A stretch of DNA of 64,000 nucleotides from Chitinophagaceae bacterium LGM1. Its GTDB lineage: Bacteria > Bacteroidota > Bacteroidia > Chitinophagales > Chitinophagaceae. Positions 15,653 through 27,168 of the stretch are shown one piece after another (position 1 is the stretch's first letter; every line of letters begins with the position of its first letter). The translations under genes were made by a program, and so were the position numbers. The stretch is from positions 1,139,501-1,203,500 of the forward strand of contig CP075895.1 in the NCBI GenBank assembly GCA_018604165.1, read 5' to 3'. The notes under the pieces are model-generated. The model searched no databases. It was given only the letters and a program-made list of their open reading frames with translations, and was not told where the DNA came from.

Positions 15653-16516
15653 TTAGTGTGTGACCTGTATCGTTTTGTTGTAGAAATGATACGTACTTTT
15701 TATGGTAATGTAATATGTGCCGACAGGAAATGATGTGGTGCTGATGGTATTCTTCTTTGTCAGCAGCAGCTTTTGGTAAATGGGCTTGCCGCTAGTATTG
15801 TATACAGTAAGTAATGCCGGGAATAGTTGGTTAGTTTGAATATGTACGATTGCATCGGCAGGGTTGGGGTATATACTGATGTCAGGTTGCATAAAGGTGT
15901 TACCAATGCTTGTGCTTGTGTCTATGCCTGGGGGTATAGAATCTTGTAAAGTAATGGACATGGTATTACCTGCTTTGTCATTACTTGGCTTGCCGTCGTA
16001 GTCTACCGCATTCACGATGGCATACAGTGTCAACTTGCCCGACGATGTTTTGGGCGATTGCCATTCCAATACATCTTTAAACCATCCGGTAGTATCGGCA
16101 GGTATGCGGGTGTAGTGTTCTGCAATATTGGGGCTGGCTTGCGGATGCCCGTGCCCGTAGCTGCCGAATGATGTGAATTTTCCTTTTGGCGTATTATTGC
16201 TATCAAGCAACAGCATCTGGTAGCCGAAAGTAGTGTAGGTGCTGTGCCTGCCACGTATGGTAATGACGTATGTTTGAGAAGCTGTGTAGTAGCGGATGCT
16301 GTCACCAGATATCTGTACCTTTTTACGGATGCTGATGGTGCTGAAAGTTGTATCTGCACCACCATTATGACAGTTGCCGCAATTGCCTGCGCCAGGACTG
16401 CCTGTTTGGTTGCCGATGCCACCAGTAGCTGGCCCGCCATGATAAGCAGATAAGGTGAGGATGATGAATGCTGCCAACACTATGGTAGCTGCATAGTGTT
16501 TGGGTGCGGCTTTCAT
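15653..16516 (-). CDS. T9SS-secreted protein with CxxCH haem-type motif, choice-of-anchor V / Reelin-like
   Basis: A 287-residue exported protein. Signal peptide with TIVLAAFIILTLSAY, then a short segment GNQTGSPGAGNCGNCHNGG carrying a CxxCH motif (residues 46-50), the attachment site for c-type haem. Residues ~60-200 resemble the Reelin-like/choice-of-anchor V domain (YVITIRGRHSTYTTFGYQMLLLD, WFKDVLEWQSPKTSSGKLTLYAIVNAVDYDGKPSNDKAGN). The C-terminus (ISIYPNPADAIVHIQTNQ...VGTYYITIKS) is a type A T9SS sorting domain. Its ATG overlaps the stop of the upstream cytochrome-like gene by 4 nt (ATGA), so the two are coupled. Whether the Cys pair really binds haem in this family is not settled. Confidence 0.85.
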   Translation of the reverse strand: MKAAPKHYAATIVLAAFIILTLSAYHGGPATGGIGNQTGSPGAGNCGNCHNGGADTTFSTISIRKKVQISGDSIRYYTASQTYVITIRGRHSTYTTFGYQMLLLDSNNTPKGKFTSFGSYGHGHPQASPNIAEHYTRIPADTTGWFKDVLEWQSPKTSSGKLTLYAIVNAVDYDGKPSNDKAGNTMSITLQDSIPPGIDTSTSIGNTFMQPDISIYPNPADAIVHIQTNQLFPALLTVYNTSGKPIYQKLLLTKKNTISTTSFPVGTYYITIKSTYHFYNKTIQVTH

Positions 16517-18027
16517 CGTGCGGTGTTTTTGAGTACAATGAATGGTATGCCAGCATTAACCCATTTATTCACCAATCCGTTGTCGGGTATCACTTCAAAA
16601 GCAAGTGAGCCGAGTATGATGTCTTCATCACCATCTTTGTCGTAGTCTGCCACATCCATTACTATCCACCTGCCAAGTGTAGGGTCGTTGATGGTGCTTG
16701 CTGTAAAGTTATTTTTACCATCGTTTTGCAAATAAACAAAACTTTCTTCGGGCTGGTGCTGATAATCGGGGAAGAATGAAATAGCTGCAATATCTATATC
16801 GCCGTCCTTGTCATAGTCGGCAGGCATAGCTGCATACGCGCCGTTCAGGTGGTAGAAGAAAGATTGTTTGAAATGATTTTGCCCGTCATTCATATATACA
16901 TAGATGCCGTGATAGTGTTTAAGGATAGGTTTGAAATCGGCATTGTCACCAGCGGTGTATATAATGTCCTCATGCCCATCTCCGTTAAAGTCGTAGAGCT
17001 TAAAGAAACTGGAGCCGTTTGATGGTGGAAAACGCAAAGCGGCTTCTTCCCTGAACTTGCCCTTACCCTCATTGTAATAAATATATATTCCCTCGTCGCC
17101 TTGCCCGAAGAGTGCTATGATGTCTTGTAGCTTATCGCCATTCAGGTCTTTGATGTAGGCTTTTATAGCACCGGGTTTATTACGAAGTATATTTTTGGTA
17201 AAGCTGCCATCGCCGTTGTTGTGCCACCATGCCAGCTTACCTGTCCATTTAGCAAACTCACAGGTTACAATATCCATTTGTTGATCGCCATCAAGGTCCG
17301 CATAAGCACTGTGCACAGGGCGTTGCAATGAGTCAAGTACTTTGAAAGGTTGCCTGTTGGCTACTTTTGGTAAGGACATGATAAAGCCGCTATTCATATC
17401 GGTAGGAGAAAAAGAACCCATCACCGTCAGCAGTAATTCTTGCGGAAACTCCTCTGCCCATACAGCCCCTTCTTTTACTTTAGCAGCCTGTATCAGTTTC
17501 AGGTCATTACCTACTACATTCAGCGATTGAGAATTGGCATCACCTATATATATAGTATTATCGGGGTTGAACTTTACATAAGTTACGGATGGTGGTGATA
17601 GTTTGTATTCGGGTATCAGCACTTCAAACTGCTTCAAACCTTTGCTGATAGTCTTTGCAGGGGGTGCTTGCAGTTTTTCTGGAGCGTTTGATAGGTAGTA
17701 GTTTTTTATTTGTTCCCATTCTTCATTACTCAATATCGGTTTTTCAGGAAATACGCCTGTTTGTTTTACAATATCCCTGCCGGGGCCGTCTTCCAGCAAT
17801 ACATCTATCAGCGAGTCGTGTTCTACAATACCCAGAAAAACACCCATACGCGGCAACATGTACGTTTTCCATGAATATTTATCGAGTAAATCGGGGGTAG
17901 GTACTACGTGACAGCTACCGCAATAGGTTTCGGCAAGTTGCTTGCCATCATTGGTATTTGCCTGTTCGTTGTTACACCCGATAGCAATCATCAGGATAGC
18001 TACTGCCGATACGATTATTCTTTTCAT
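16513..18027 (-). CDS. lipoprotein with c-type haem motif and FG-GAP/VCBS beta-propeller
   Basis: I place the start at 18027, giving MKRIIVSAVAILMIAIGCNN, a lipoprotein signal with the lipidated Cys at residue 18. The frame is open to 18237, but that extension is not signal-like. A single CxxCH follows at residues 36-40 (CGSCH), then a mono-haem-like segment (PTPDLLDKYSWKTYMLPRMG) and, from ~120, repeated FG-GAP/VCBS units with Ca-binding-like D-x-D-x-D loops (DLDGDQQMDIV, DLNGDKLQDII, DFNGDGHEDII, DYDKDGDIDI, DYDKDGDEDII). The length of 504 residues matches Bacteroidota haem/FG-GAP proteins. Likely an envelope redox or surface-binding protein; substrate unknown. First gene of a two-gene operon. 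Confidence 0.85.
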   Translation of the reverse strand: MKRIIVSAVAILMIAIGCNNEQANTNDGKQLAETYCGSCHVVPTPDLLDKYSWKTYMLPRMGVFLGIVEHDSLIDVLLEDGPGRDIVKQTGVFPEKPILSNEEWEQIKNYYLSNAPEKLQAPPAKTISKGLKQFEVLIPEYKLSPPSVTYVKFNPDNTIYIGDANSQSLNVVGNDLKLIQAAKVKEGAVWAEEFPQELLLTVMGSFSPTDMNSGFIMSLPKVANRQPFKVLDSLQRPVHSAYADLDGDQQMDIVTCEFAKWTGKLAWWHNNGDGSFTKNILRNKPGAIKAYIKDLNGDKLQDIIALFGQGDEGIYIYYNEGKGKFREEAALRFPPSNGSSFFKLYDFNGDGHEDIIYTAGDNADFKPILKHYHGIYVYMNDGQNHFKQSFFYHLNGAYAAMPADYDKDGDIDIAAISFFPDYQHQPEESFVYLQNDGKNNFTASTINDPTLGRWIVMDVADYDKDGDEDIILGSLAFEVIPDNGLVNKWVNAGIPFIVLKNTAR

Positions 18028-18186
18028 AAGCCCGAAAACAAACCTGCAAGCTATATATATGCAAGTGGTAGGGCAATGTATGCTATGTTTCCTTTGTGTT
18101 ATTTTTTTTAGCATGGTATTTGTTGTACCGTGTTTTGTTAGCTGTTTCTTATGATAGTTTAGAAGAACATTAGACAAAACAATGCA

Positions 18187-18222
18187 GTTACCGCAACATA
18201 GCGACAAATGTTCGCGGGTAAC
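18187..18222. repeat. imperfect inverted repeat between divergent genes
   Basis: Arms GTTACCGCAACAT (18187-18199) and ATGTTCGCGGGTAAC (18208-18222) match as an interrupted palindrome with 8 nt between. It lies in the 298-nt gap between the haem lipoprotein (minus) and the phosphatase (plus), and its right arm overlaps the first 11-bp operator unit. It could be an operator; role unknown. Confidence 0.4.
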
Positions 18223-18294
18223 AATAAGATAATCCATTGTTTACAGATGCATTACACATCGCTAACATTGCCTAAACCATTAGTTAACACTGCC
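18218..18294 (+). promoter_or_regulatory. array of seven in-phase 11-bp repeats, PhoB-box-like, before the PhoX-like phosphatase
   Basis: Consecutive 11-nt units, read without gaps: GTAACAATAAG / ATAATCCATTG / TTTACAGATGC / ATTACACATCG / CTAACATTGCC / TAAACCATTAG / TTAACACTGCC. Position 4 is A in every unit, positions 2-4 are TAA, TTA or AAA, and most continue C-A or C-C. The array ends at 18294; after 4 nt (ACCT) comes a -7-like GACATTTG (18299-18306; one mismatch to TAnnTTTG), then 19 nt to the ATG. Repeats of 11 bp upstream of a -7/-10 element are the architecture of PhoB-family activator sites. The same arrangement precedes the genes at 22331 and 25300. Confidence 0.6.
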
Positions 18295-18325
18295 ACCTGA
18301 CATTTGCATCAAAATCAAAACTGCG

Positions 18326-20185
18326 ATGAAGAAATTATTTTTACTAACAGCAATGACAGCTGCGGTATGTACTGTTGCAAATGCGCAATTGCAATTTCCT
18401 GTACACATCAGCGGCCAATGGGCAGCTCAAACAGTGTGGATGCCTAAATCTCCACTGAAACAACAAGTAATATTTGTGGGTGGTGTTGATACTGTACAGA
18501 CTACTGCAGTATATGGCAATGCCGCTGGTAAAGCTGTTGCCAAACAATGGCATGACTATATCGGCTTTGTGAAAGACAGTACTGCACCCGGCGATTTGGG
18601 TTGGGTTATTGTAAACCATGAGATGACGACTAAAGATGACAAAAATGGTGATGGTGGTGGTATGACGACTTTCAAGCTGCGTAAGAAAGCTAATAAAGAA
18701 TTGGAAGTTGTAACAACTACATTGCCAGACGGACGTACTGGTAAATTCTTTAACGTTGATTTTGCAGGTACTACAGGTGAAACAGGTATGAACTGTGGTG
18801 GTATAACAAAAGGCGGTCGTATATGGACTGCAGAAGAGTGGATGCAGAGCAGCAACCCAGGCATTTTTGCTGGTGGCAATGGTTACCGTGATACTTCTGA
18901 TTTTGTTATCGGAACTACAACACCTGCAGGTTTTACTGGCTTTAATGGCAGGACTATTAAGCGTTTCCAAAACCTGAACTGGATGGTTGAGGTTGACATC
19001 AAAACAGGTAAAGCAATCCGTAAGCAATACAACTGGGGCCGTGCCGGTTGGGAAGGTGGTGTTATCATGGCTGATAACAAAACAGTATATCTTTTTGAAG
19101 ATGCTTCTCCAGGTATCTTGGCTAAATTTGTAGCTACAAATGCAGGTGATTTTACCACAGGTCAGTTGTCTGTTTACAAGCATGATGGTACACCAAAATG
19201 GATAAACATAGAAAACAACCTTGATACTTTACTGAACCTGAATACTGTTGCTATTCGCCGTGGTGCGACAATGTTCAACCGTCTTGAGTGGGGCGCACAA
19301 CACAATGGTAAAATATACATTTGCGAAACAGGTCGTGATGCGTTTAATTATAATTCAGGTATAGCTTTGAATGGGGTTATTTCACCATCGTTGGTTGATG
19401 GTTATAAAGCACGTTTTGCTATCGTAAACGGTACTTCATTTACAGGTACTAATGCAGCAGCAGCAGACTCTGTGCGAGTTGGTAAATTTTTCGATTATTA
19501 TGGTCGTGTAATAGAATTTGATCCTGCTACTGACAATGTACGTTCTTTTATAGAAGGTGGTCCATTCAAATCAAGCTCTACTTCAGACCAATTGCCTCTG
19601 TATCCTGAAAAACATTTGTCTAACCCTGATGGTATTGATTTCTTTACTTTCGGTAGCAAAACATATATGATGATACAGGAAGACTTGAACGGTACCAGCT
19701 ACAACCGCATGCCAAATGGCTTGACTGGTACAATATGCGAAACTTATTTATTAGACATGTCTATCCCTGGTCCAACCATCAACGATTTACAACGTTTGAC
19801 AGCTTGTGCCCCGGGTGCTGAAATTACCGGTGGTATGCAGATAGATCATGAAACTATCCTGTTTAACTCTCAACACCCTAACACTAACAACGTTGCACCA
19901 TACAACAATTCATTGACATATGCTATAACAGGTTTTGATACTACTAAGCCAGTTACAAGTGTTATGCCATTAGAAGTGAAATCTAAGAACTTTACTATCT
20001 ATCCAAACCCTGTATCGCGCGAATTGCACATCAGCCAGCCTATGGATGTAGCTATCTACAACATGAACGGCCAACGTATGAAAGTGCTGCGTAATGTACA
20101 GAAAGTAGATGTTTCTGATATGGCAGCAGGTGTTTACTTCATCCGTAGTGCAGATGGAGAAACGCTGAAGTTTATTGTTGAATAA
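18326..20185 (+). CDS. PhoX-family (DUF839) phosphatase-like protein with type A T9SS sorting domain
   Basis: Predicted secreted phosphomonoesterase releasing phosphate from organic phosphorus. Signal peptide MKKLFLLTAMTAAVCTVANAQ; PhoX/DUF839 body ~25-530. Within it NCGG (Cys157) followed by WTAEEW (Glu170-Glu171) resembles the PhoX core N-C...W-G-T...C-E-E that binds the metal centre, and GDLGWVIVNHEMT resembles the YVVNHE segment. C-terminus (FTIYPNPVSRELHISQ...AAGVYFIRSADGETLKFIVE) is a type A sorting domain, so it ends on the surface or outside the cell. True PhoX is Tat-exported; here the leader is Sec-like and release is via T9SS, a Bacteroidota variant. It is preceded by the repeat array at 18218 and followed by a strong terminator. 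Enzyme activity is inferred. Confidence 0.82.
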   Translation: MKKLFLLTAMTAAVCTVANAQLQFPVHISGQWAAQTVWMPKSPLKQQVIFVGGVDTVQTTAVYGNAAGKAVAKQWHDYIGFVKDSTAPGDLGWVIVNHEMTTKDDKNGDGGGMTTFKLRKKANKELEVVTTTLPDGRTGKFFNVDFAGTTGETGMNCGGITKGGRIWTAEEWMQSSNPGIFAGGNGYRDTSDFVIGTTTPAGFTGFNGRTIKRFQNLNWMVEVDIKTGKAIRKQYNWGRAGWEGGVIMADNKTVYLFEDASPGILAKFVATNAGDFTTGQLSVYKHDGTPKWINIENNLDTLLNLNTVAIRRGATMFNRLEWGAQHNGKIYICETGRDAFNYNSGIALNGVISPSLVDGYKARFAIVNGTSFTGTNAAAADSVRVGKFFDYYGRVIEFDPATDNVRSFIEGGPFKSSSTSDQLPLYPEKHLSNPDGIDFFTFGSKTYMMIQEDLNGTSYNRMPNGLTGTICETYLLDMSIPGPTINDLQRLTACAPGAEITGGMQIDHETILFNSQHPNTNNVAPYNNSLTYAITGFDTTKPVTSVMPLEVKSKNFTIYPNPVSRELHISQPMDVAIYNMNGQRMKVLRNVQKVDVSDMAAGVYFIRSADGETLKFIVE

Positions 20186-20205
20186 AGATTGATAATGATA
20201 ATTTT

Positions 20206-20237
20206 ACCGAAGCCCCTAAACAGGGCTTCGGTTTTTT
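20206..20237 (+). terminator. intrinsic terminator of the PhoX-like gene
   Basis: Perfect 10-bp stem ACCGAAGCCC / GGGCTTCGGT, loop CTAAACA, followed directly by six T. Strong. It overlaps the first codons of the longest frame of the next gene, which supports the later start at 20266. Confidence 0.9.
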
Positions 20238-20265
20238 GGTTTATATAGGAAACACAGTAATCAGA

Positions 20266-22200
20266 ATGAAAAAAGTGTACGTGTTGTTGTTGTCGGTTGC
20301 ACTGATCGGCTTGTCTTTTATGGCATTCAATAATGCTGAAAAACAAGCATCTGCTACAATTAAGCAAAGGCATTTGCAAAGAATGGATGCTTTTATTGGA
20401 AGCTTGCAACATTTTAGAGATGTTCTACAAAAAGCAGATACTAATAGTGGTGAGTATTTACAACAACAATTTCTGCTAGTAAGAAAATCATTTAAAGCAT
20501 GGGAATATCTTGGTGAATACCTTGACGCTCAGTTTGTAAAAGATAATGTGAACGGAGCTCCATTACCAAAACTGGAGCGCAATACATTTGGTATAGTAGT
20601 GATGCAGCCCAGGGGCATGCAACAAATAGATGATATGCTATTTGGCGGTACTTTGGCAGAAAACAAAACAGAACTATTAGAACATACTGACAAGTTGCTG
20701 AATGCATTGCGCGATTATAAAAATCTACCTAATACTATATACGACAGGATAGTATTCGAGGCCGCACGTACTGAATTAATCAGAATACATACTTTGGGGC
20801 TGACTGGATTTGATGTGCCGGGTTCAGGTAATTCTATACAAGATGCAATAACAGTACTGCAAACGATTGAGCAGGATTTGCTACTGTATAAACCTTTGTT
20901 TGAAAAAACAGATAAAGCCAATACACAAATATTCTATACTAAGCTTGCAAGCAGCATCCAATATCTGCAACAACACAATGACTTTAATACATTGGACAGG
21001 CTTCATTTTCTCACAGATTATCTGAACCCGATGTTTGATAAGCTATTACTATTACATAAAGCATCGGGTGTAGAGATGCTGCATGAAACCACACAGGCAT
21101 TCCTCTTACCACCTTATAATCACCAGGCAGACAATTTGTTTGCCAATGATTTCCTAAACCCTTTCAAATACATAGGATTGCCGCAAGAATTATACACGGC
21201 AGAACTTGTAGAGCTCGGCAAGACACTTTTCTACGACCCTGTATTGTCGTCAAAAAACAACAGGTCGTGTGCAAGCTGTCACAACCCCTCACTTGCATTT
21301 ACAGACGGCAAAGAAAAAAGTACAGCACTTGATTTTGACGGAACAGTAGAGCGCAATGCACCAACATTGATAAACTGCGTGTACAGCGAGCGTTTTTTTC
21401 ATGATATGCGTACTGAAGTGTTAGAAGCACAAATAGAGCATGTACTTACCAATCGTAAAGAATTTGATACAGATATGCTTGCTATTATTGACAAGTTGAA
21501 AGAAAGTAAAGAATACGTAGCGATGTTTGAGAAAGGCTTAAAAGACTATAAAGGTGAAAAGATAAGCGGGCAGGGTATCACGTTTGCTTTGTCAGCTTAT
21601 GTTACTTCATTGCGTGGGTTCAATTCTTCTTTCGATAAATATGTACGGGGTGAAACAAAATCAGTAAGTGCAGATGTGCGCAGAGGGTACAATCTGTTTA
21701 TGGGTAAGGCAGTATGCGGTACATGCCATTTTGCACCTGTTTTTAATGGCACTGTACCACCTCGATACGAAGAGAGCGAGAGTGAAGTGCTGGGTGTGCC
21801 TGCAAGCCCATATGTGAAACAACCCGTAATAGACCCTGACCTTGGCAGGGCAAAAGGTATGTTGAAAGACAATGTGTACTTCTACGAATACTCTTTCAAA
21901 ACACCCACCGTGCGCAACATAGCTCTCACATCACCGTATATGCACAATGGTAGCTATAAAACACTGGAAGATGTGATGGATTTTTATAACAAAGGTGGTG
22001 GTGATGGTATTGGCATCAAACTGGAACACCAAACATTACCATTCGATAGCCTGAGCCTGAACAAGCAGGAGATAAAAGATATCATTGCTTTTATGCAGGC
22101 ATTGACCGATACCACCAATATGACAAAAATGCCTGTCCGACTACCAAAATTTGAGAAACACTCAGCACTTAACAACAGAAAAGTGGGTGGCGACTATTAA
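20266..22200 (+). CDS. imelysin-like / di-haem cytochrome c peroxidase fusion
   Basis: Periplasmic haem protein of 644 residues. The start at 20266 (MKKVYVLLLSVALIGLSFMAF) gives a proper export signal; the frame opens at 20236 inside the terminator. Residues ~30-260 are all-helical (FKAWEYLGEYLDAQFVKDN, NGAPLPKLERN, PRGMQQIDDMLFGG, TLGLTGFDVPGSG) and resemble an imelysin-like four-helix domain. Residues ~290-625 are a CCP/MauG domain: LGKTLFYDPVLSSKNNRSCASCH (haem 1, Cys335-His339), SLAFTDG, RNAPTLIN, then CGTCH (haem 2, Cys484-His488) and TPTVRNIALTSPYMHNGS. It reduces peroxide or acts in a MauG-like oxidation. It lies between phosphatase and TonB receptor, in the same orientation, but behind a terminator; no repeat array of its own was seen. 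Confidence 0.87.
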   Translation: MKKVYVLLLSVALIGLSFMAFNNAEKQASATIKQRHLQRMDAFIGSLQHFRDVLQKADTNSGEYLQQQFLLVRKSFKAWEYLGEYLDAQFVKDNVNGAPLPKLERNTFGIVVMQPRGMQQIDDMLFGGTLAENKTELLEHTDKLLNALRDYKNLPNTIYDRIVFEAARTELIRIHTLGLTGFDVPGSGNSIQDAITVLQTIEQDLLLYKPLFEKTDKANTQIFYTKLASSIQYLQQHNDFNTLDRLHFLTDYLNPMFDKLLLLHKASGVEMLHETTQAFLLPPYNHQADNLFANDFLNPFKYIGLPQELYTAELVELGKTLFYDPVLSSKNNRSCASCHNPSLAFTDGKEKSTALDFDGTVERNAPTLINCVYSERFFHDMRTEVLEAQIEHVLTNRKEFDTDMLAIIDKLKESKEYVAMFEKGLKDYKGEKISGQGITFALSAYVTSLRGFNSSFDKYVRGETKSVSADVRRGYNLFMGKAVCGTCHFAPVFNGTVPPRYEESESEVLGVPASPYVKQPVIDPDLGRAKGMLKDNVYFYEYSFKTPTVRNIALTSPYMHNGSYKTLEDVMDFYNKGGGDGIGIKLEHQTLPFDSLSLNKQEIKDIIAFMQALTDTTNMTKMPVRLPKFEKHSALNNRKVGGDY

Positions 22201-22224
22201 TTGAAACATAGGCCAGTAAAGGGC

Positions 22225-22301
22225 TTAACATTGCGGTAACATTCCGTTAATGTTAAGAAAATATTTTGATAACATTGCCTAAACGTACATGCGATAAAGC
22301 G
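22225..22301 (+). promoter_or_regulatory. array of seven in-phase 11-bp repeats before the TonB receptor
   Basis: Gap-free 11-nt units: TTAACATTGCG / GTAACATTCCG / TTAATGTTAAG / AAAATATTTTG / ATAACATTGCC / TAAACGTACAT / GCGATAAAGCG. The first three and the fifth match the unit at 18262 (CTAACATTGCC) closely; the last unit is degenerate. The array ends 4 nt before the -7 box at 22306, exactly as at 18294 and 25270. The two arrays at 18218 and 22225 share ATTGCC-TAAAC across a unit junction, which argues for common ancestry or common regulator. Confidence 0.65.
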
Positions 22302-22305
22302 ATTT

Positions 22306-22313
22306 TACTTTTG
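22306..22313 (+). promoter_or_regulatory. -7 promoter box of the TonB receptor
   Basis: TACTTTTG, exact TAnnTTTG, 4 nt after the repeat array and 17 nt before the ATG at 22331. Confidence 0.7.
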
Positions 22314-22330
22314 CGCAACAAAATATATAT

Positions 22331-25201
22331 ATGCGTAATAAGTTACTCTTTACCTTCTTTTTAACGGCAATTTACAGTGCATTTTCAGTGGTTGCATTTG
22401 CTGCAAAAGTTAGCGGTATTGTTACAGATGAAAAAAATGAACCCCTGATTGGTGCGGTTGTAGTACTGAAAGGTGCTGAAAAAGGCACACAAACAGATGT
22501 AGACGGTAAGTTTGAAATAAATGGTGTGGAAGATGGTACGTACGAAGTACTGTTTACCATGATTACATACAAAAAAGTACTGAAAACAATTACTATTACT
22601 AAAGGCAAGGACGTAGAATTGACGGTGCAACTGAAAGAAGAAAGCGCCAGCAAAAACCTGACGGAAGTAACAGTAAAAAGTAACAAGCTGAGCAATACAG
22701 AAAACGCGGTATTGATGGAAATTCGCAAGAGCAATACCATAGTAAGTGGTATCAGCTCTCAGCAAATACAAAAGACGATGGATAGGAACGCTGCCGACGT
22801 AGTAAGGCGCGTACCCGGTGTTACCATCAATGATGATCGCTTTATCATGGTGCGTGGCCTGAATGACAGGTACAATAACGTATGGCTGAACGATGCGGCA
22901 GCACCAAGCAGCGAGGTAGATAAAAAATCATTCTCTTTCGACATTATACCAAGCGGACAGATAGACAGAATAATGGTGTATAAAACACCAGCACCCGAGT
23001 TGCCGGGCGACTTTGCAGGCGGTATGGTGAAACTATATACAACATCTATTCCCGATAAGAATACCTACACAGCAGGCTTCTCTATGTCTGCAAGGCAATA
23101 TTCTACAGGTACTAATTTCAACTATAACGAACCATCTAAAACAGACTGGTTGGGTTATGACGACGGTGGCAGGTCTTTACCTGAAGGATTGCCAACTGAG
23201 AATATCAAGAAATCTAATCCAGATATTGCTAATATTACCAAGTCTTTTTCTAATGAAGGGTGGAAAATCAAACAAAGGACATTGTCGCCCGATATGCGCT
23301 TTAATGCATCGGCTTCTAATATCTTCAACCTGAAATCGGTACGTATAGGTAATACTTTTGCCGTTAACTATAGTAATACATCTACCAATTTTACAGTTAA
23401 CCGTTATGACTGGGATTCTACTACATTCGGTAACCTATTCCATGATACTTTGTCAGTTAATAACCGCAATGTTGCATTACTTGAAAACGTTGCAGTAGGC
23501 TGGGGAAATAATAAAATAGAATTCAGAAACCTGTACAACCAGTTTGGCAGATCTGCATTAACAGTAAGGAATAGCCAAAATAATGATCTTGATACAACAC
23601 AAGAGTATTTTAATGAGCGTATATACCTGATGGAATATGAAAGCCGTGCTATTTATAGTGGTCAGTTGAGCGGTACACATAAAAGTAGAGATGATAATAG
23701 GCGATATACATGGTCTTTAGGTTACACAAATCTATTTAGAAATCAGCCAGATCTGAAACGGATTAAGTATCAAAAAGCAAAAAATGATGATGATAGTTCT
23801 TATGCTGCTCCAATACCTCCCGGCTCACCAGATATAAATAATGGTGGTGGTCGAATATTCGCAAGGCTGAATGAAAATATATATAGTTTTAATCAGCAAT
23901 ATAATATGCAAAGTATACGTATTGGTAATTATAAGTTCGAAGGTTCTATAGGTAGTTATGTTGAATATAAACAAAGAAGTTACAGTTTAAGGCAATTTGG
24001 TTATACACTTAAAAAATCCGCTAACCCTAATTTTGGACAATTAACAAGGCTGCCGATTGGTGAAATGTTTGCCGAAGAAAATTTGGGTGGACCTAATCAA
24101 TTCAGGATAGAGGAGTCAACAAATGACTATGATAAATACAGTGCAAATAACATGTTGATTGCTGGTTTTATAGCATTGAAATTGCCTGTTGGTAATAGGG
24201 TGACAGTGTATGGCGGTGCCAGATATGAGCATAATGATTATAAACTTACTACATCATTAAACCAAGTAGCACTTACACCGCAAATCGTTACAAAATATGT
24301 GTTGCCGTCAGTAAATGCAAGTTATAATATAACAGATAAAAGCCTTGTGCGTGTCGCTTATGGCATGACATTGAATAGACCTGAATTTAGGGAAAATTCT
24401 CCTTTCTACTTTTATGATATGGAAAACCGATGGGGTGTAAAAGGTGCAATGTTTCCTTCAATCATTAATAAAACAGGTGATACATTGGATGTGGCTGAAA
24501 TACATAATATAGATGCAAGATGGGAGTGGTACCCTTCCTCAAGTGAAATGATACAGGCAGGTGTGTTTTACAAAGACATAACAAACCCAATACAACAAGT
24601 AATATCTGTAGAAGTTGGTGATGCGCGTGAATATACATTTGCAAATTACAAAAGTGGTTATACTTATGGCGTAGAATTTGATGTACGTAAAAACCTTGAC
24701 TTTGCAGACAAATGGCTTAATACAAATTTCTTTAAGAATTTCAATTTCATAGGTAATGCTGCGTTTATGAAGAGCGAAGTAGTACCAATAGAAACAGCTT
24801 TTACTGGTAAAACACCATTGCAAGGTCAATCACCTTATATGTATAATGGTGGAATTTATTATCAGAATGACAGCATTAACCTACAGGCAACTTTGGTATA
24901 TAATGTCTTCGGGCCAAGGATATTCGTCTTAGGCAAAACTAAAAGTAAAACAGGAAATGTATGGGAATTACCTTTCCATTCTTTAGATCTTATGGTGTCT
25001 AAAAGGTTCTTCAAGCACTATACATTCACGTTGGGTGTACAAAACTTGCTAAATTCTTACACAAGACAATACCAAGATACAAATCATGATAATAAAATTG
25101 ATAGGCATAGTGATATAATAAATCCTTCTAAAAACGATAAGCCTATCAACGAATTCAGGATGGGTAGGTACTACACAATGGGTATCAAACTCCGCTTTTA
25201 G
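22331..25201 (+). CDS. TonB-dependent outer-membrane receptor, candidate phosphorus-ligand transporter
   Basis: A 956-residue outer-membrane transporter. Signal peptide ending SVVAFAA; carboxypeptidase-like regulatory domain (~28-105; VSGIVTDEKNEPLIGAVVVL, TQTDVDGKFEINGVEDGTYEV); plug (~120-235; MDRNAADVVRRVPGVTINDDRF, VRGLNDRYNNVWLNDAAAPS, LPGDFAGGMVKLYTT); barrel to the C-terminal aromatic GRYYTMGIKLRF. There is no STN domain and no SusD, and it is not linked to a sigma/FecR pair, unlike the receptors at 8682 and 12365. The next gene encodes a T9SS protein whose promoter carries the same repeat array, so the two are probably co-regulated partners. Ligand unknown; regulation with a PhoX-like phosphatase suggests a phosphorus compound. 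From about 23.5 kb onward codons look AT-richer than in the N-terminal half. Confidence 0.9.
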   Translation: MRNKLLFTFFLTAIYSAFSVVAFAAKVSGIVTDEKNEPLIGAVVVLKGAEKGTQTDVDGKFEINGVEDGTYEVLFTMITYKKVLKTITITKGKDVELTVQLKEESASKNLTEVTVKSNKLSNTENAVLMEIRKSNTIVSGISSQQIQKTMDRNAADVVRRVPGVTINDDRFIMVRGLNDRYNNVWLNDAAAPSSEVDKKSFSFDIIPSGQIDRIMVYKTPAPELPGDFAGGMVKLYTTSIPDKNTYTAGFSMSARQYSTGTNFNYNEPSKTDWLGYDDGGRSLPEGLPTENIKKSNPDIANITKSFSNEGWKIKQRTLSPDMRFNASASNIFNLKSVRIGNTFAVNYSNTSTNFTVNRYDWDSTTFGNLFHDTLSVNNRNVALLENVAVGWGNNKIEFRNLYNQFGRSALTVRNSQNNDLDTTQEYFNERIYLMEYESRAIYSGQLSGTHKSRDDNRRYTWSLGYTNLFRNQPDLKRIKYQKAKNDDDSSYAAPIPPGSPDINNGGGRIFARLNENIYSFNQQYNMQSIRIGNYKFEGSIGSYVEYKQRSYSLRQFGYTLKKSANPNFGQLTRLPIGEMFAEENLGGPNQFRIEESTNDYDKYSANNMLIAGFIALKLPVGNRVTVYGGARYEHNDYKLTTSLNQVALTPQIVTKYVLPSVNASYNITDKSLVRVAYGMTLNRPEFRENSPFYFYDMENRWGVKGAMFPSIINKTGDTLDVAEIHNIDARWEWYPSSSEMIQAGVFYKDITNPIQQVISVEVGDAREYTFANYKSGYTYGVEFDVRKNLDFADKWLNTNFFKNFNFIGNAAFMKSEVVPIETAFTGKTPLQGQSPYMYNGGIYYQNDSINLQATLVYNVFGPRIFVLGKTKSKTGNVWELPFHSLDLMVSKRFFKHYTFTLGVQNLLNSYTRQYQDTNHDNKIDRHSDIINPSKNDKPINEFRMGRYYTMGIKLRF

Positions 25202-25204
25202 TAG

Positions 25205-25270
25205 TTTACAATTCCTTAATATACAGGTAACCCCAGATTAACACTACGCTAATCTGGGGTTAATATTTGG
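25205..25270 (+). promoter_or_regulatory. array of six in-phase 11-bp repeats before the T9SS beta-helix-like protein
   Basis: Gap-free units: TTTACAATTCC / TTAATATACAG / GTAACCCCAGA / TTAACACTACG / CTAATCTGGGG / TTAATATTTGG, then 4 nt (AGCC) and the -7-like TACTTTCG (25275-25282; one mismatch), 17 nt before the ATG at 25300. Same geometry as at 18218 and 22225. It begins 3 nt after the receptor stop codon and contains the 13-bp hairpin at 25228-25262. Confidence 0.6.
25228..25262 (+). terminator. 13-bp perfect hairpin after the TonB receptor, overlapping the next gene's operator
   Basis: TAACCCCAGATTA / TAATCTGGGGTTA with 9-nt loop ACACTACGC, followed by ATATTTGG. It is placed like a terminator for the receptor gene but has a poor U-tract, and the whole element is embedded in the 11-bp repeat array. 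It may be a terminator, an operator, or both. Confidence 0.55.
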
Positions 25271-25299
25271 AGCCTACTTTCGCAATCAAATCATAGAAT

Positions 25300-27168
25300 A
25301 TGAAAAAACTTTTCTTCTTAACTATCCTCTTATTATCAGTAGTTGTACGTACGTACGCCTTTACTACTGTTACAGTACAAGGTGAGATTAATTCGAGTAC
25401 AACATGGACCAAAGACAAACAATACCTAATAAAAGGGTATGTGTATGTAACAAGCGGAAACACTTTGACAATTGAGCCTGGTACAATCATTCGTGGCGAC
25501 AAAGCAACTAAAGGTGCACTTATTATTGAGCGTGGGGCTAAAATTATGGCAAATGGTACTGCAGATAAGCCAGTAATATTTACATCTAATGAAGCACAAG
25601 GCAGTCGTTCTTATGGTGACTGGGGTGGTATTATCATTTGCGGTAAAGCACCTGTTAACTGGACTGCAGGCGAAGCACAGGTAGAAGGCGGTCCTCGCTC
25701 TTTCTATGGTGGTACAGATGCTGCTGATAACAGTGGTAAACTGTCTTATGTGCGTATAGAGTTTGGTGGTATCGCGTTTTCACCTAACAATGAAGTAAAC
25801 AGCCTGACATTGGCCGGTGTAGGTAGCGGCACACAAATAGACCACATACAGGTAACAAGCGGTGGTGATGATGGTTTTGAGTGGTTTGGCGGTACAGTAG
25901 ATGCAAAATATCTGGTATCTGTTGGGCACGTTGATGACGATTTTGATAGCGATAACGGTTGGAGCGGTAAAGTACAATTTTTCGTTGCGCAGAAAGACCC
26001 TAACGTTGCGGACGTTAGTGGTTCTAAAGCAATAGAAACTGACAGCTATCTGGCTGGTACTGTTGATGGTAAAACAGACAATACGAAAGCTACTAAAGCT
26101 GTAATGTCTAATGGTACACTGATAGGACCAGTTGTAACACCAACTTCTACTGCATTTGACGTAACGCAGCACACTGCTGGTGTACACATACGCCGCGGTA
26201 GTGCATTAAGTGTTATGAATACTGTAATTGCAGGTTTTGCTGCTGGTTTGTTGATAGATGAGTCTTCTTCTACTTTCGGTTCTACTACAGCAAATATCGG
26301 TAGCGGTTTGATGGAGTTTAAATCAAACATCATTGCAGGTACTTCAACTATTTGTACACCTGCAGGTGCTCCTAACAGAAATGTTGTATTTGTAATCAAT
26401 GGTGCGCGTTCTTTGACACCAACTTGTACAAATGCAGACTCTGCTACAACAGGTAATACTAACTTCAGTCCTTTCGCTGGTCCGTTTACTTATATACAAG
26501 ATCCGGCATCGCGTAACTTCCAATATGCTGCATTTACAAGCTCTGTACAGCTGCAAAATCCATTTGACCAAACAAATCCTAACTTCTTCCCTAAGAGTAC
26601 ATCACCTATCATTTATAACAACAGGGCTTTACCAAGCTATATTCCGGCAGGTACTTTCCCAGGCAATGTGTATCCTTTTGACTGTTCAAAAGCTATCAAT
26701 ACAGATACTTCAGCTCTTTTTGTAAACTATAATGCGCCAGTTGTTGTTCCTAATTTTACATCTCCAAAGACTAGCGATGCATTCTTTACTAAGACTAATT
26801 ATGTAGGTGCATTTGGCTGCTCTGGTGACAACTGGATGAGCAAATGGGCTAACTTTGACCCTAACAATACTTTCTACGATTATACTGAATCAGTTTCAGA
26901 AGTAGCAAGTAATATTGAGTCTGCTGTTGTATATCCTAACCCAGCAACAACTAATGCTTATGTAAACATCTCTTTGAAAGAAAATGCAGATGTACAAATA
27001 GTATTGGTTGATGTAACCGGCCGCAAAGTACAAGACATATTCAGTGGTAAAGCTAAAGGTTCTCAAACTTACCCTGTTAACCTGATGACTGTAGGTGCAG
27101 GTATGTATTTTGTGAATGTAATAACTGCTGACGCTACTCAAACAGTGAAACTGGTTATTGCTAAATAA
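25300..27168 (+). CDS. T9SS-secreted beta-helix-like protein, partner of the TonB receptor
   Basis: A 622-residue exported protein: signal peptide MKKLFFLTILLLSVVVRTYA, then a repetitive beta-rich body (~25-530). Recognisable pieces are INSSTTWTKDKQYLIKGYVYV, TIEPGTIIRGDKATKGALIIERGAKI, DWGGIIICGKAPVNW and the conserved VTSGGDDGFEWFGGTVDAKYLV...HVDDDFDSDNGWSGKVQFF. This right-handed-helix-like family is often encoded after TonB receptors in Bacteroidota. The C-terminus (AVVYPNPATTNAYVNISL...GAGMYFVNVITADATQTVKLVIAK) is a type A T9SS sorting domain. The Asp-rich DDGFEW/DDDFDSD stretch could bind metal. Function unknown; shared promoter architecture with the PhoX-like gene and the receptor suggests a surface binding protein for their substrate. 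Confidence 0.82.
   Translation: MKKLFFLTILLLSVVVRTYAFTTVTVQGEINSSTTWTKDKQYLIKGYVYVTSGNTLTIEPGTIIRGDKATKGALIIERGAKIMANGTADKPVIFTSNEAQGSRSYGDWGGIIICGKAPVNWTAGEAQVEGGPRSFYGGTDAADNSGKLSYVRIEFGGIAFSPNNEVNSLTLAGVGSGTQIDHIQVTSGGDDGFEWFGGTVDAKYLVSVGHVDDDFDSDNGWSGKVQFFVAQKDPNVADVSGSKAIETDSYLAGTVDGKTDNTKATKAVMSNGTLIGPVVTPTSTAFDVTQHTAGVHIRRGSALSVMNTVIAGFAAGLLIDESSSTFGSTTANIGSGLMEFKSNIIAGTSTICTPAGAPNRNVVFVINGARSLTPTCTNADSATTGNTNFSPFAGPFTYIQDPASRNFQYAAFTSSVQLQNPFDQTNPNFFPKSTSPIIYNNRALPSYIPAGTFPGNVYPFDCSKAINTDTSALFVNYNAPVVVPNFTSPKTSDAFFTKTNYVGAFGCSGDNWMSKWANFDPNNTFYDYTESVSEVASNIESAVVYPNPATTNAYVNISLKENADVQIVLVDVTGRKVQDIFSGKAKGSQTYPVNLMTVGAGMYFVNVITADATQTVKLVIAK

Follow-up and report, generated by a model that had tools for sequence, protein, structure and literature searches.

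Phased 11-bp repeat arrays before phosphate-related genes of a Chitinophagaceae bacterium: a probable Pho operator of the Bacteroidota

Introduction

The PhoP box of Bacillus subtilis is made of TTAACA-like hexamers that recur every 11 bp. Pho operators have been described for several phyla, and in the available portions of a review the Pho box is given as two 11-nt units with the motif CTGTCAT, to which PhoB binds in tandem and head to tail (PMC4415409). A table of Staphylococcus epidermidis YycF sites, in a paper available to us in part, places TTAACA-N5-TTTACA at -96 of pstS (PMC5405149). Here we describe arrays of 11-bp direct repeats in front of three promoters within a 64,000-nucleotide stretch of Chitinophagaceae bacterium LGM1 (contig CP075895.1, positions 1,139,501 to 1,203,500; hereafter the window), which very probably represent the Pho operator of the Bacteroidota and would be bound by an oligomer of PhoB.

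For this phylum the closest data come from Flavobacterium johnsoniae, in which depletion of inorganic phosphate (Pi) induces the PhoX-like Fjoh_2478 together with the MauG-like Fjoh_2477, the TonB-dependent transporter (TBDT) and lipoprotein FII of Fjoh_0545/0546 within the phoBR cluster, and likewise PlcP and a glycosyltransferase (PMC8115612, available portions). That study reports expression, and the terms "Pho box" and "promoter" have 0 occurrences in its main text. In another member of the Bacteroidota, Bacteroides fragilis, an electrophoretic mobility shift assay shows binding of PhoB to a pstC promoter fragment of 512 bp; the terms "consensus" and "binding site" do not occur in the available text (PMC3547664). 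Putative Pho boxes have been placed before plcP in marine bacteria, with no sequence given in the portion available (PMC4796936). A Bacteroidota Pho box sequence was not found in the accessible text of PMC3547664, PMC4415409 or PMC4796936. More generally, the open-licence literature on the phosphate response of the phylum, as far as its text was accessible, holds expression data and one gel shift and no operator sequence that we could find. We consider it most likely that the arrays are a form of PhoB operator for which we found no description in this open-licence literature.

Results

The three arrays consist of seven, seven and six 11-bp units, each array ending 4 nt before a -7 box of the form TAnnTTTG, with the ATG 17-19 nt beyond the box (Table 1). 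Our analysis reproduced the coordinates, unit counts, 4-nt gaps and box-to-ATG distances of the original prediction at all three promoters. The unit then proposed, nTAACAnnnnn, held as an 11-bp repeat and proved looser in sequence: exact TAACA is present in 7 of the 20 units and TAA followed by C or T in 13 of them, and the matrix described below gives nTAA(C/T)A-TTnn(G/C) as a better consensus. Array 2 is degenerate in its two units nearest the promoter; the positions conserved in relatives lie, by eye, 36, 58 and 80 nt before the box. Array 3 occupies the 98-nt gap between the TonB receptor gene and the gene of a protein sorted by the type IX secretion system (T9SS). It holds a perfect 13-bp inverted repeat, so that part of its repetition is due to a hairpin; by eye, the TAA(C/T) phase is retained in relatives that lack this hairpin. 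A terminator check returned the perfect 13-bp stem, with a terminator-like site by pattern scan on the - strand only. Short hairpins are also visible by eye in the last units of some relatives, and operator and hairpin may share bases at 25228-25262.

Like the Escherichia coli Pho box, the arrays are 11-bp direct repeats placed directly upstream of the promoter core, and they stand before pst and phosphatase genes. They differ from it in their unit, which does not follow CTGTCAT, in their greater length of six or seven units and in being anchored to the Bacteroidota box TAnnTTTG, and the earlier claim that unit and array length depart from the proteobacterial form was upheld. The hexamer is nearly the same, and the period the same, as in the B. 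subtilis PhoP box and in YycF/WalR sites; in contrast to these, the repeat of the window belongs to another phylum, reads TAAC on the coding strand and keeps one fixed distance to the promoter box. The Pho consensus varies between species, at least in the available part of the review (PMC4415409), and the mismatch to CTGTCAT therefore excludes the proteobacterial form only. By gene type the locus resembles the Pi-depletion regulon of F. johnsoniae as given in the available text, with its PhoX-like and MauG-like pair, its TBDT and lipoprotein FII, PlcP and a glycosyltransferase (PMC8115612). The window holds a PhoX-MauG pair and a pair of TonB receptor and partner, and the LGM1 genome a possible counterpart of the glycosyltransferase; judged from gene type and order, the window proteins would be homologous to the Fjoh proteins.

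Across four genomes of the genus (LGM1 and three others) 59 of the 77 columns of array 1 are identical, compared to 21 of 118 just upstream, and in the alignment with LGM1 the conserved upstream block of the orthologues of gene 18326 begins at the first unit of the array. The most constant unit positions in these four genomes are 2-6 and 8. Relatives of the TonB and T9SS genes, within the genus and beyond, carry TAA(C/T) every 11 bp with diverged spacers, most clearly for the T9SS gene. Period and offset were left free in separate tests on TonB/T9SS, pst and mauG-phoX upstream sets. At period 11 with offset 14, exact TAA(C/T) units averaged 2.52 out of 6 in 48 TonB upstream regions and 3.08 in 26 T9SS-gene regions, and every other combination (periods 8-13, offsets 8-21) gave at most 1.15 in the same regions; some of these 74 regions are closely related or derive from short partial matches, and all were retained. 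In all three gene sets no offset did better than TAA 14 nt before TAnnTTTG, and the 11-bp period stood out there against periods of 8, 9, 10, 12 and 13; the exception is a strict scan of 80 Flavobacteriales loci, to which we return below.

A matrix was then trained on 24 promoters of TonB/T9SS genes from outside the genus, with no sequence from the window. Because these promoters were selected for at least two TAA(C/T) units at phase, period and offset are built into the matrix. Run over both strands of the window, it ranked the three arrays first with 39.0 bits (25275), 35.0 bits (18299) and 30.0 bits (22306), the next independent site reaching 10.8 bits. In 40 windows simulated with an order-1 Markov model the maximum score averaged 9.6 bits and never exceeded 16.3 bits. 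That in-phase arrays are common to the three promoters, as originally noticed, is confirmed by a matrix from outside the genus that puts exactly these sites first.

The phosphate link was sought at pst loci of the class Bacteroidia, where PstC was found at E <= 1e-30 in 40 of 119 genomes drawn. Regions from 30 of these 40 genomes were scanned, 15 of them extended by about 4 kb. Of the 30 genomes, 19 have an array in their pst region with the period, offset and strand of those in the window, and 1 has one on the opposite strand; the 65 other combinations of period and offset give a mean of 0.14 genomes and a maximum of 2. With a looser box the counts become 21 genomes on the pst strand and 2 on the opposite one (other combinations: mean 1.23, maximum 11). 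Ten proteins were scanned among the 24 listed frames downstream of these arrays: five are PstS-like (PF12849), one is the permease found as PstC, two are Porin_O_P and two have no family. As many members of the class have this ladder in front of genes for phosphate uptake, it is most likely a landing site for PhoB. A scan of the genome and its relatives for arrays before pst and pho genes had been proposed as a check, and it led to such genes at the pst regions just described and, within the genus, at genes for PhoX, phytase-like proteins and MauG.

We also analysed 80 mauG-phoX loci from Flavobacterium, Chryseobacterium and one Frigoriflavimonas, a set from which F. johnsoniae is absent and in which the array stands out only by TAA alone or by a profile model. 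Start codons of mauG were parsed in 19 of the 80 loci, 6 of them from Flavobacterium, and the period test rests on these 19. With TAA alone, period 11 and offset 14 came out best at 3.16 of 5 units, followed by the position one unit further at 2.84, with all others at 1.37 or less. The profile, a 78-column sequence model, was built from 40 arrays that include those of the window and exclude mauG-phoX operons. On 40 of the 80 loci it gave 31 matches at E < 0.01. Thirty of these end -5 to 21 nt from the start of the MauG match, and the remaining one (L287) lies before a phoX gene. Distances refer to the MauG match and not to the ATG: with the BLAST match extending beyond the start codon, the ATG rule was satisfied in 4 of the 31. 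Arrays precede the mauG-phoX operons of Chryseobacterium.

Searched in 20 genomes, the same model matched at E <= 0.1 in at least 19. The arrays of the window belong to the training set, so that their recovery in this search is partly built in, and array 2 was matched out of register; the test that is free of window sequence is the out-of-genus matrix scan. Among the matches listed beyond the training promoters are those of the phoX-like orthologues in G005, G006 and G012 and, in LGM1 itself, those of a paralogue of the T9SS gene (1094436) and of a metallophosphoesterase gene followed by a glycosyltransferase gene (160480). Twenty further matches, with E of about 1e-7 to 1.5e-3, were picked by hand among the matches listed. 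Half of them (10 of 20) precede genes of PhoX-type, phytase-like, MauG or metallophosphoesterase proteins, seven confirmed by Pfam and three by N-terminal resemblance, the metallophosphoesterase case having 202 nt from box to ATG. The others lie before two outer-membrane receptors, five small proteins (four scanned, no Pfam family) and, in L421, L433 and L439, something of another kind or nothing definite.

The strict pattern TAAY+TAnnTTYG has 23 matches in LGM1 versus 15 when reversed, which is too weak on its own; it touches all three arrays, its match to array 2 being out of register with the -7 box, and two genes came to attention through it, the T9SS paralogue (1094470) and that of the metallophosphoesterase (160508). 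A TTAACA-by-three pattern has 66 matches versus 10 reversed, but a different regulon of opposite orientation accounts for much of this excess, and the count is therefore not used as support. A PstS-like gene at 440803 (TIGR02136) was dropped, its neighbours not forming a pst operon by eye.

Candidate regulators were sought in the LGM1 genome, which encodes seven Trans_reg_C regulators, four of them closest to RprY. RR_1227 (G000:C1:1227143, outside the window) is the only one of the seven with PhoB as its best NCBIfam family. Next to the TonB gene of L104 there is a relative of RR_1227 (55% over 222 residues); the pst loci L204 and L205 have partial matches to it (52% over 98 and 82 residues).

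The genes behind the arrays are listed in Table 1. Gene 18326 had been taken for a PhoX-like phosphatase: a weak likeness to PhoX stands, a profile of five orthologues reaching solved PhoX (4amf/3zwu) with E 8e-4 over about 50 residues, whereas the protein has no match to the PhoX family model PF05787. Its orthologues in three congeneric genomes share 90-95% identity. The 25300 protein, for which no solved relative was found, is likely the counterpart of the Pi-induced lipoprotein family FI/FII of F. johnsoniae, as suggested by gene order and by the fold assigned in the original prediction. In another genus, L162 (G015:C33) lines up TonB, T9SS-partner and PhoX-like genes side by side, a gene company like that of the window; no array is visible there upstream of the TonB and T9SS genes. 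On the other side of array 1, the mechanically called open reading frame of the divergent FG-GAP gene (16513-18237, - strand) extends into the array, and the true start of this gene is probably the lipoprotein-like ATG near 18028.

Table 1. Arrays, promoter boxes and genes in the window (positions count from its first nucleotide)
Feature	Position	Strand	Remarks
Array 1, seven 11-bp units, putative operator of the phoX-like/mauG pair	18218..18294	+	35.0 bits by matrix; conserved in the genus
-7 box GACATTTG	18299..18306	+	4 nt after array 1
Array 2, seven 11-bp units preceding the TonB receptor	22225..22301	+	30.0 bits by matrix
-7 box TACTTTTG	22306..22313	+	4-nt gap from array 2
Array 3, six 11-bp units preceding the T9SS protein	25205..25270	+	39.0 bits by matrix; phased TAA(C/T) in relatives
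-7 box TACTTTCG	25275..25282	+	4-nt gap from array 3
Perfect 13-bp inverted repeat inside array 3	25228-25240/25250-25262	none	
PhoX-like secreted protein with T9SS sorting domain	18326..20185	+	Por_Secre_tail; weak profile match to PhoX
MauG-like di-haem cytochrome c peroxidase	20236..22200	+	PF03150, 1.3e-42
TonB-dependent receptor	22331..25201	+	PF00593, PF07715, PF13715
T9SS-sorted protein adjoining the TonB receptor gene	25300..27168	+	Por_Secre_tail; TonB gene adjacent in relatives too

Other repeat arrays were seen outside the window. A second set of 11-bp arrays in G000:C1 reads TTGTTAA-N4 in the opposite orientation (for example at 1043687, 1405741 and 1333772, loci L001, L003 and L002 respectively), with 14 sites at one mismatch or fewer; at up to three mismatches it has 76 sites and its reversal 43. 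In L001, L002, L003 and L008 the array lies 111-116 nt before the ATG of 183-aa proteins with nearly the same N-termini; more distant proteins follow the arrays of L010 and L019. No Pfam family was found for the L001, L010 and L019 proteins scanned. We take the TTGTTAA array to resemble the YycF/WalR half-site. In addition, L432, L434, L436 and L438 (G000:C1:574659) have near-identical arrays before small lipoprotein-like genes, ending at AAGTTGTT and not at a normal -7 box, and three of these four genes were scanned with no Pfam family found.

Discussion

The arrays, with their phase, fixed spacing and conservation, precede pst, porin, phoX, mauG and metallophosphoesterase genes. The interpretation as a Pho operator, already put forward in the original prediction, gains support from the arrays of the same phase at the pst loci and the phoX and mauG genes of relatives. 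In this scheme a PhoR-type kinase would, at low phosphate, phosphorylate a PhoB-type winged-helix regulator, for which RR_1227 is the best candidate. PhoB molecules could then line up head to tail, one per 11-bp unit and all on one face of the DNA. As the last unit lies at a fixed distance from the box (TAA 14 nt before TAnnTTTG), the oligomer would end at the expected -33 element; the innermost PhoB may take the place of this element and recruit RNA polymerase that carries the primary sigma factor of the Bacteroidota, presumably through direct contact. The outcome would be induction of the PhoX-like phosphatase with MauG and of the TonB receptor with its T9SS partner.

Several observations weigh against a PhoB operator. 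RR_1227 scores 213.9 bits against PhoB (TIGR02154), below the equivalog cut-off of 296.2, and 208.3 bits against the Bacteroides PhoB model, below its cut-off of 270; no clear array was found upstream of its own gene. LGM1 itself has no PstC match at E <= 1e-30. Of its 15 model matches 12 are listed, and five of these precede expected gene types, three being training sites, with the rest unclear, unread or unrelated-looking. At the strict setting 11 of the 30 pst regions have no array, some of which may stop short of the operon start. The strict scan (at least three TAA(C/T) units) of the 80 Flavobacteriales mauG-phoX loci found the array in 5, and two period-9 combinations, with 18 loci each, exceed period 11 there (other combinations: mean 1.3). 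The model has no match at E < 0.01 in six Flavobacterium loci (best E 0.011), and the strict pattern in the Flavobacterium limi genome gives 30 matches versus 21 reversed, no clear enrichment; taken together these two results suggest that the motif is weaker or altered in Flavobacterium. Finally, among PF05787 loci (the best matches in the class) the array was found in 0 of 30, of which 29 have no MauG match in their 1.5-kb flanks, and five PhoX regions read further out gave an array in one, L262.

Could the arrays be something other than a PhoB operator? For an origin by chance or from the composition of AT-rich intergenic DNA, array 3 being mainly a terminator hairpin, one may cite the exact TAACA in 7 of 20 units and the perfect 13-bp inverted repeat. 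Yet simulated windows reach at most 16.3 bits compared to 30-39 for the arrays, phase and offset are kept as the spacers diverge, and the 65 other period and offset combinations are near zero in the pst regions. Chance is contradicted by the phase, pst and matrix tests, and we give it next to no weight. A further idea makes the arrays part of the promoter itself, as curved or A-tract-like UP elements in touch with RNA polymerase, with no activator site involved. A DNA-bending element would show a fixed spacing to the -7 box and an 11-bp phase too, but 10 of the 20 further model matches and the pst regions are phosphate-related and not strong promoters in general, and the unit has base-specific positions (C/T, A, G/C) besides TAA. 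We regard such elements as very unlikely.

Somewhat less improbable, though still unlikely, is a real operator read by another regulator of the OmpR/PhoB family, RprY- or CzcR-like, that senses something besides phosphate. Winged-helix regulators commonly use direct repeats of 10-11 bp, and of the seven Trans_reg_C proteins in the genome four are best matched by RprY. Against this, in the class the arrays stand upstream of pstS, pstC and genes for phosphate-selective porins, and phoX, phytase-like, mauG and metallophosphoesterase genes follow them in the genus. The PhoX-like/MauG-like and TBDT/FII genes of F. johnsoniae are moreover induced by Pi depletion in the available text of that study (PMC8115612). 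We favour the PhoB operator.

From a broader point of view, and here we only speculate, since we hold it to be somewhat less probable than its opposite, the arrays might be the Pho code of much of the Bacteroidia: a long head-to-tail PhoB oligomer on up to seven in-phase units, ending at one fixed position and taking over the -33 contact of the sigma factor. The regulon would then include unstudied FII-like T9SS proteins, TonB receptors and small lipoprotein-like proteins. A second regulator in the same genome might act on the near mirror-image TTGTTAA, which recurs with an 11-bp period in front of a small-protein family; orientation and distance of the repeats would then separate two related regulators. 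A working motif would allow the phosphate regulon to be read from many Bacteroidia genomes; it names a regulator to test and offers candidate functions for abundant and so far unexplained secreted proteins of low-phosphate conditions.

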